Shown here: piece after piece, positions 45,145 to 58,703 of the stretch
How the letters are laid out: each line of letters starts with the position of its first letter
Numbering within the stretch: the stretch's first letter is position 1
NCBI GenBank assembly: GCA_023475025.1
Contig: JAMCWB010000004.1
Span: 186,001 to 250,000, forward strand
Direction of reading: 5' to 3'
DNA: 64,000 bases
Source of the DNA: Gammaproteobacteria bacterium
GTDB taxonomy: Bacteria; Pseudomonadota; Gammaproteobacteria; Pseudomonadales; Pseudomonadaceae
Position numbers and translations under genes: made by a program
The notes under the pieces: generated by a model
Databases searched by the model: none
What the model was told of the DNA's origin: nothing
What the model saw: the letters and a program-made list of their open reading frames with translations, nothing else

Positions 45145-45252
45145 GCGGCGTTGCCAGCCAGCGGTCCCAGACCGTCGATGCATAGGGATATGCATCGTCG
45201 AGTCCCAGGGACGGCTGGTAGCGTGTCTGGGACCGCTGGCTGGCAAAGCCGC
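45145..45252. repeat. Structured repeat, copy 1
   Basis: Two 28-base arms (45145-45172 and 45225-45252) form an inverted repeat with 27 of 28 positions paired. They enclose a 52-base asymmetric core (45173-45224). In the core, GATGCATA and TATGCATC form a perfect eight-base-pair hairpin with a GGGA loop, followed by a small stem AGTC / GGCT. Copy 2 at 58596-58703 has the same orientation and a core differing at eight of 52 positions. The copy lies between yciO and trpS. It resembles REP-type elements in scale but I do not recognise the family. Confidence 0.85.
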
Positions 45253-58595: not shown

Positions 58596-58703
58596 GCGGC
58601 ATTGCCTACCACCTGTTGCAGACCGTCGATGCACATGGACGTGCATCGACGAGCCCCAGGGATGGCTCGTAGCGTGTCTGCAACAGGTGGTAGGCAATGC
58701 CGC
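58596..58703. repeat. Structured repeat, copy 2
   Basis: Arms 58596-58623 and 58676-58703 are a perfect 28-base inverted repeat around a 52-base core (58624-58675). The core starts with an 11-base-pair hairpin, CGTCGATGCAC with GTGCATCGACG. Against copy 1 the outer arm part (GCGGCrTTGCC) and inner CAGAC/GTCTG are kept. The intervening 12 bases are TACCACCTGTTG here and AGCCAGCGGTCC in copy 1; the opposite arm changes to match. A shared ACTCGCAAGC lies just outside one arm of each copy (58707-58716 here, 45137-45146 in copy 1). Confidence 0.88.

Follow-up and report, generated by a model that had tools for sequence, protein, structure and literature searches.

The window, a 64-kb stretch of contig JAMCWB010000004.1, contains two copies of a palindromic element, which are given with their parts in Table 1. 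Copy 1 is flanked by a gene of the Sua5/YciO/YrdC family and a class I tRNA synthetase gene. Both neighbors lie on the minus strand, and the strand of copy 1 with GGA in its hairpin loops (the GGA strand) is therefore antisense to both. Copy 2 sits between two divergent genes, a recQ-like gene on the minus strand and a UPF0149-family gene on the plus strand. The initial annotation had reported 28-base arms paired at 27 of 28 positions in copy 1, as well as a partner element whose core differed at 8 of 52 positions. Both descriptions hold, as the 27 pairs of copy 1 are Watson-Crick, copy 2 is paired at 28 of 28 positions, and the 52-base cores give the same count of differences. The arm changes that it had described as mirrored were also recovered: between the copies, positions 6, 12, 13, 17, 19, 22, and 23 are changed, alike in both arms. 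Six of these seven positions fall within one 12-base stretch, and position 6 is the sole mismatch of copy 1. The exchange of T-A for C-G that had been placed in a core hairpin is present at the loop-closing pair, which in hairpin 1 of copy 1 is T-A and not the usual C-G. The plus strands of the two copies fold with z scores of −10.9 and −13.0 relative to 200 dinucleotide shuffles, none of which equals them, and the minus strands behave likewise. A search of the window with the covariance models R1 and R2 (described below) returned these two copies as the only well-scoring matches; the other five R1 matches are the reverse strands of the two copies and three matches at 13 to 17 bits.

Table 1. 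Positions in the 64-kb window of the two element copies and their parts (+, strand with the GGA loops)
Feature	Position	Strand	Description
Element, copy 1	45145..45252	+	R1, 121.5 bits; R2, 68.6 bits
Copy 1, outer stem, 5' arm	45145..45172	+	27/28 paired with 45225-45252
Copy 1, hairpin 1	45176..45197	+	8-bp stem; hexaloop AGGGAT at 45184-45189
Copy 1, hairpin 2	45199..45218	+	Loop AGGGAC at 45207-45212; C-G closing pair; bulged bases beneath
Copy 1, outer stem, 3' arm	45225..45252	+	Partner of 45145..45172
Element, copy 2	58596..58703	+	R1, 130 bits; R2, 72.2 bits
Copy 2, outer stem, 5' arm	58596..58623	+	28/28 paired with 58676-58703
Copy 2, hairpin 1	58627..58648	+	8-bp stem; hexaloop ATGGAC at 58635-58640; C-G closing pair (canonical)
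Copy 2, hairpin 2	58650..58669	+	Loop AGGGAT at 58658-58663; C-G closing pair in CsrA register
Copy 2, outer stem, 3' arm	58676..58703	+	Partner of 58596..58623

The source genome contains at least 69 distinct copies of this element, identified by BLAST and then by R1, a covariance model of the 24 source-genome copies found by BLAST. The 103 R1 matches on 57 loci correspond to 69 places after removal of 34 weaker matches to the opposite strand at the same place. A second model, R2, covers the core and is built from 48 rows, of which 35 are copies from other genera matched by the pattern CCANGGANGGGTTNACNGCGTGTC and 13 are source-genome copies; the E values of both models are rough. Full-length copies are longer than 108 bp and reach about 175 bp or more. 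The anatomy reads, from one end to the other, outer stem, GAC, hairpin 1 (with a variable stem), AG, hairpin 2, YAC.GCGT, GTC, and outer stem, where the variable outer stem of approximately 28 bp closes a three-way junction with two small hairpins. Seven source-genome copies (L025, L027, L030, L108, L115, L116, and L019:520) are extended by an insert of 48 to 52 bp in hairpin 1, which forms two more hairpins with the GGA-bearing loops CANGGANG and GCAGGAGC.

The fold is supported by strong covariation. Where the initial annotation had allowed that further copies might be missing or might have unpaired arms, the genome provides the places counted above, and in the 24 aligned copies 97.8% of 1,005 cells are paired, with 26 of 42 pairs changed on both sides; none of 500 shuffles scored as high on any measure. 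Among the 48 R2 rows, 92.0% of the cells are paired, doubly changed cells number 439 versus 144 in shuffles, and the covariation score is 0.706 versus 0.167, a value that no shuffle out of 500 reached. The observed count of double-change pairs was reached by 4 of 500 shuffles and that of pair types by 1 of 500, the remaining measures being reached by none. Divergence is about twofold faster in the arms than in the junction (mean pairwise difference of 0.266 versus 0.135, and 0.414 for the most variable arm segment), and the arms are still paired.

The stem mismatches reveal which strand is folded. G-T mismatches outnumber A-C mismatches by 104 to 19 in the source genome (68 of 69 copies), by 138 to 42 in copies from named records (89 of 121 copies, among the matches listed), and by 112 to 14 in the class-wide set (69 distinct rows), with 33 of 190 copies left out of the counts because their arms could not be anchored (1 from the source genome and 32 from named records). 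Given that a G-T on one strand is an A-C on the opposite one, this indicates that the strand with the GGA loops is the strand kept folded. The excess on this strand is independent of the orientation of the neighboring genes, and the pairs of hairpin 2 show G-U/G-C exchanges, which are possible on the GGA strand only. The fold is thus under selection, and on the GGA strand only. Of the two explanations initially offered for the paired changes, selection of the fold and renewal of one arm from the other, selection is supported by the covariation and by the G-T excess. This excess is not expected from arm copying, which disfavors copying as a substitute for selection; copying is not needed to account for the data and may sometimes occur.

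The loops of both hairpins are conserved. In the class-wide set, whose 69 distinct rows derive from 74 matches at 52 loci in 47 genomes, both loops read C-ANGGAN-G in 62 rows. The fixed positions C, A, G, G, A, and G are kept in 69, 68, 68, 68, 69, and 69 rows for hairpin 1 and in 69, 68, 69, 68, 69, and 68 rows for hairpin 2. The A, G, G, and A of the loops are thus 99 to 100% conserved, whereas both N positions vary, with G or T as N in 118 cases out of 138, and the two commonest loops of the family are of the ATGGA and AGGGA types. Of 66 rows, 58 have a gap of 20 nt between one GGA and the other, and all 66 have 19 to 21 nt. Since the search pattern behind R2 partly fixed hairpin 2, but not hairpin 1, in its training rows, the unbiased evidence is that of hairpin 1 and of the source-genome copies. 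These pattern-free copies contain at least two ANGGA motifs in the junction in 61 of 68 cases, versus 3.4% of shuffled cores, and the seven remaining copies have a loop 1 that is shortened or mutated. In the minimum-energy fold of copy 2, hairpin 2 adopts a shifted register and not the CsrA register; in that of copy 1, the predicted junction differs. The family, its fold, the selected strand, the conservation of the loops, and their spacing are established by computation.

The family is widespread in the class of the window. Carriers make up 70 of 369 genomes and 63 of 272 genera in a class-wide gammaproteobacterial sample (E ≤ 1e-5), and a family of this extent, with a very clear covariation signal, is yet apparently nameless. 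In a phylum-wide sample, all 31 carriers among 398 genomes belong to the class of the window or closer. Copy numbers from these two scans are floors, given their strict filters and a ceiling of 11 (class) and 10 (phylum) candidates scored per genome. At E ≤ 0.001, matches are present in 28 of 37 genomes of the same genus, the source included, and in 4 of 21 genomes from the rest of the order. Within the genus the R1 matches are all or none: nine of the 37 genomes (G002, G006, G010, G013, G017, G022, G032, G033, and G034) have no match, and the others have 6 to 62. The core pattern occurs, among the matches listed, in Stenotrophomonas, Xanthomonas, Marinobacter, Microbulbifer, Shewanella, Oceanisphaera, Rheinheimera, Halomonas, Alcanivorax, and Halopseudomonas. 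It also occurs in a record titled Bacillus subtilis SK7B5 (L182, JAHREJ010000009.1). This record is the only one among the matches listed that is neither gammaproteobacterial nor from an unclassified proteobacterium, and it is therefore probably a mislabeled or contaminated assembly.

The initial annotation did not recognize the family, and neither database searches nor the literature supplied a name. The Rfam scan of the window gave no match at the gathering score. A scan of 16 element loci at E ≤ 1 gave six matches, all below the gathering score and none to Csr or Rsm families: mir-B6 (two), mir-431 (one), and Ysr224 (three), which were dismissed as chance matches of long hairpins. The CsrB and RsmZ families, in particular, were not matched at the gathering score in the window or at these loci. 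A full-length copy used as query found no match in plasmid and phage collections. No description of the repeat was found in the open-licence literature, where the words of its core sequence occur once, in an unrelated Streptomyces paper. The family appears to be undescribed, without a name, an Rfam entry, or an assigned function.

The initial annotation had left a REP-like unit, a structured RNA, and a folded single strand as alternatives, and loops of the ANGGAN type placed 20 nt apart now point to a more specific reading, in which the partner is CsrA/RsmA. The SELEX consensus of CsrA is RUACARGGAUGU with an ANGGAN hexaloop, and a CsrA dimer bridges sites separated by 10 to 63 nt, best at more than 18 nt, as stated in the available text of PMC7652899. 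The high-affinity site is described as an ANGGAX hexaloop that sits immediately on top of a stem, and in the solved complex the loop is closed by C-G (PMC4005645, in part), and RsmE is reported to bind effectively only ATGGA and AGGGA hairpins (PMC9928087, in part). As far as these excerpts go, the loops and the 20-nt gap of the repeat equal the published CsrA/RsmE high-affinity site and bridging distance and are close to them in every respect visible in sequence. The stems, in contrast, are unlike those of the SELEX ligands, which mostly have four or fewer base pairs (PMC7652899, in part), and this suggests that CsrA may bind poorly to stems of high stability. On the grounds of loops, spacing, and base preferences, the loops of the GGA strand are probably recognized by CsrA/RsmA.

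The source genome has a single csrA gene, whose product contains L4 and R44, residues whose role in CsrA is treated in PMC7652899 (available text). Among good-quality genomes, csrA is found in 57 of 58 carriers versus 280 of 314 genomes overall (one-sided Fisher test, p = 0.006), and among all genomes in 65 of 70 carriers versus 313 of 369 (Fisher test, p = 0.023). These tests ignore phylogeny and genome size and are confounded by both, and the association lends weak support to a role of CsrA. The search of the 70 carriers found no csrA in 5 of them, including G253, which is 98% complete.

An RNA of the GGA strand would fold into a long stem, a three-way junction, and two hairpins, and if this strand is transcribed, its two ANGGAN hexaloops 20 nt apart would offer a platform for one CsrA/RsmA dimer. 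The likeliest effect of dozens of scattered sites would be titration of CsrA, and sense copies could act locally on the transcripts that contain them. On balance, the element is taken to be a dispersed palindromic repeat of high turnover whose RNA would present a platform for a CsrA/RsmA dimer and would likely titrate CsrA. A further proposal, more tentative and less likely than not, is that the repeats are mobile CsrA decoys, selfish or domesticated, which would disperse dimer-binding platforms over gammaproteobacterial genomes class-wide and whose copy number would, together with scattered intergenic transcription, set the level of free CsrA. CsrA might also bind the folded single-stranded DNA of the repeat during its spread, by analogy with RsmQ, which bound AnGGA on DNA hairpins, and with Rsm proteins more generally, which bind such DNA hairpins in vitro (PMC9928087, in part).

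The placement of the copies bears on the source of such an RNA. Inspection of the element flanks by eye revealed no promoter. By simple scripted gene calls, as opposed to a standard gene finder, 214 placed copies comprise 54 in sense and 72 in antisense tandem position, 64 between convergent genes, and 24 between divergent genes; a further 13 lie inside a called gene and 33 at the edge of a locus. There is no sense bias relative to neighboring genes, the tandem counts leaning the other way with p = 0.13. Within 100 nt behind a stop codon, copies of the named and class-wide sets are 26 sense versus 63 antisense (p = 1e-4, with a stricter gene threshold), a bias that is absent from the source genome (23:25) and from the two subsets of named records that run to L210 (1:5 and 15:19). 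Purifying selection against CsrA sites at 3' ends, or an insertion preference, would give such an antisense excess, which is taken to speak against simple read-through transcription. Sense and antisense copies retain the G-T excess and the loops equally well, which argues that the transcripts of neighboring genes do not maintain them. Read-through from the preceding gene is not supported as the selected transcript on these two grounds, the missing sense bias and the equal integrity of sense and antisense copies. Among 22 pairs of neighboring copies less than 200 bp apart, 10 are in the order "− +" and 4 in the order "+ −".

The repeats turn over rapidly. None of the 24 same-genus relatives with matching flanks has either window copy at the orthologous place. 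The nearest relative (G015) lacks both copies and is shorter by 174 bp where copy 1 lies and by about 116 bp where copy 2 lies, not cleanly; its intergenic sequence is rearranged, and clean empty sites were not found. In this relative only 16 bp (TGCAGGCAAAGTCTGC; G015:C10, L253 at approximately 1800 to 1816) separate the flanks of copy 1, possibly a deletion scar. Some full-length copies in the source genome and its relatives have outer inverted repeats, GGAA(A/G)CACTGATTAA, which are absent from both window copies and of which a part is found in 16 of the 69 source-genome copies. In other genera the outer repeats differ, and such lineage-specific ends suggest passive mobilization of the kind known for miniature transposons, by which the copies may have spread. 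At the examined loci, no insertion sequence with these ends was found within 2.5 kb, and no target duplication was found. Pairing between the flanks of a source-genome copy is slightly stronger than pairing with swapped partners (mean of −20.8 versus −19.0 kcal/mol, p = 0.007). Three loci of G022 and G017 (L315, L329, and L333) contain another palindromic element, of 250 to 278 bp, with the same GGAAGCACTGATTAA ends, and R1 finds no copy in these two same-genus genomes.

These features can be read in other ways. The repeat could be a mobile palindrome active in the form of folded single-stranded DNA. As in systems of the REP/IS200 type, the GGA strand would be the transposition intermediate, and an enzyme, HUH/Y1-like or of another kind, would read its two hairpin loops and its junction; the resemblance to CsrA sites would then be a coincidence or a hijacking of CsrA. 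The selection of one strand irrespective of the neighboring genes, the missing sense bias, the absence of the window copies from the orthologous places of all 24 relatives, and the frequency of close inverted neighbors, as in BIMEs, all agree with this explanation, which is nevertheless judged unlikely. The occurrence of the family does not follow that of Y1 transposase genes: G023, a complete genome in 20 contigs, has 31 element matches and no match to PF01797, whereas 7 of the 9 element-free genomes of the genus have one or more. As the driver, a Y1/RAYT transposase was therefore rejected in the sense of a general correlate, on the evidence of PF01797 among the same-genus genomes. Moreover, conservation is central and not at the ends that an enzyme would cut, and the explanation does not account for why both loops fit ANGGAN with a free N.

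Alternatively, the repeats could be MITEs, miniature derivatives of DDE transposons that are moved through their outer inverted repeats and carry the core as a passenger. The ends shared by full-length copies here and in relatives, and found again on the different element of G022 and G017, are what such derivatives would have, but these ends vary by lineage and are missing from the window copies and from most source-genome copies, whereas the core is conserved class-wide. A passenger core would not retain covarying stems and fixed loops, and with neither a target duplication nor an intact insertion sequence with these ends found, and with the sites of the nearest relative not being clean empty sites, this origin is considered very improbable. 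There is equally little probability that the repeat is a 3'-end element, that is, a hairpin that terminates or stabilizes the transcript of the preceding gene, mostly in the antisense (TCC-loop) orientation. The excess of convergent over divergent positions, and the mostly antisense copies close behind stop codons in the multi-genus set, would be accounted for, but the selected fold and the conserved loops are on the other strand, and the source genome has no orientation bias. Inspection by eye of a set of copies showed no T-run following the stem, and an intrinsic terminator was rejected.

The CsrA/RsmA reading invites comparison with sRNAs of the CsrB/CsrC and RsmX/Y/Z type, which, as described in part, likewise have several GGA hairpin loops per RNA with the loop and spacing preferred by the protein. 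Those are encoded by one or a few dedicated genes, whereas the repeat is multicopy and dispersed and differs from CsrB and RsmZ in having two sites per copy (three or more if extended), in its long closing stem, and in the lack of a known promoter. Integron attC sites have GTTRRRY and RYYYAAC boxes at the base of their fold, and none were seen by eye in the same set of copies. REP and BIME palindromes, which are tagged by GTAG or CGTC (PMC3733652, in part), are also dispersed, intergenic, and palindromic, often in inverted pairs, with a preference for gene 3' ends that the repeat shows in the wider set. According to the same excerpt, REPs measure 20 to 40 bp and have the unpaired tag at one end, whereas the repeat spans 108 to about 175 bp and combines a three-way junction with conserved loops; it has no constant end tag of this type, its ends being paired. 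The MITEs NEMIS, ERIC, and YPAL, named in the available text of PMC3733652, resemble the repeat in size and inverted repeats, and the full-length copies share their terminal repeats with another element, but the repeat is constant in its center and varies in arms and ends between copies and lineages. RsmU of Xanthomonas campestris and CsrR1/CsrR2 of Alcanivorax dieselolei are transcribed RNAs with several GGA motifs, RsmU being reported and CsrR1/CsrR2 proposed to bind CsrA/RsmA (PMC7694677 and PMC9788540, both in part). The genera of both also carry the repeat family, as judged by the core pattern among the matches listed, and these RNAs are set apart from the repeat by their descriptions as single loci.

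If the CsrA reading is true, mobile palindromic repeats would be linked to a global posttranscriptional regulator, and the old question of the role of dispersed bacterial palindromes would gain a specific protein partner. The repeats would also supply candidate antagonists of RsmA for genera with few known ones. In Xanthomonas, whose genomes contain the repeats (among the matches listed), database searches retrieved no homologue of the classical CsrA-sequestering sRNAs, according to the available text of PMC7694677. Should the copies act as decoys, the sponge would be distributed over many repeats in place of a dedicated sRNA gene.

A composite tandem array is present at L377:928-2154 (G599:C1:94427-95653), where six copies follow each other on one strand with a period of approximately 227 bp. 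Each unit of this array also contains GTAGGAGCGGCTTCAGCCGCGA, which resembles a REP of the GTAG type.
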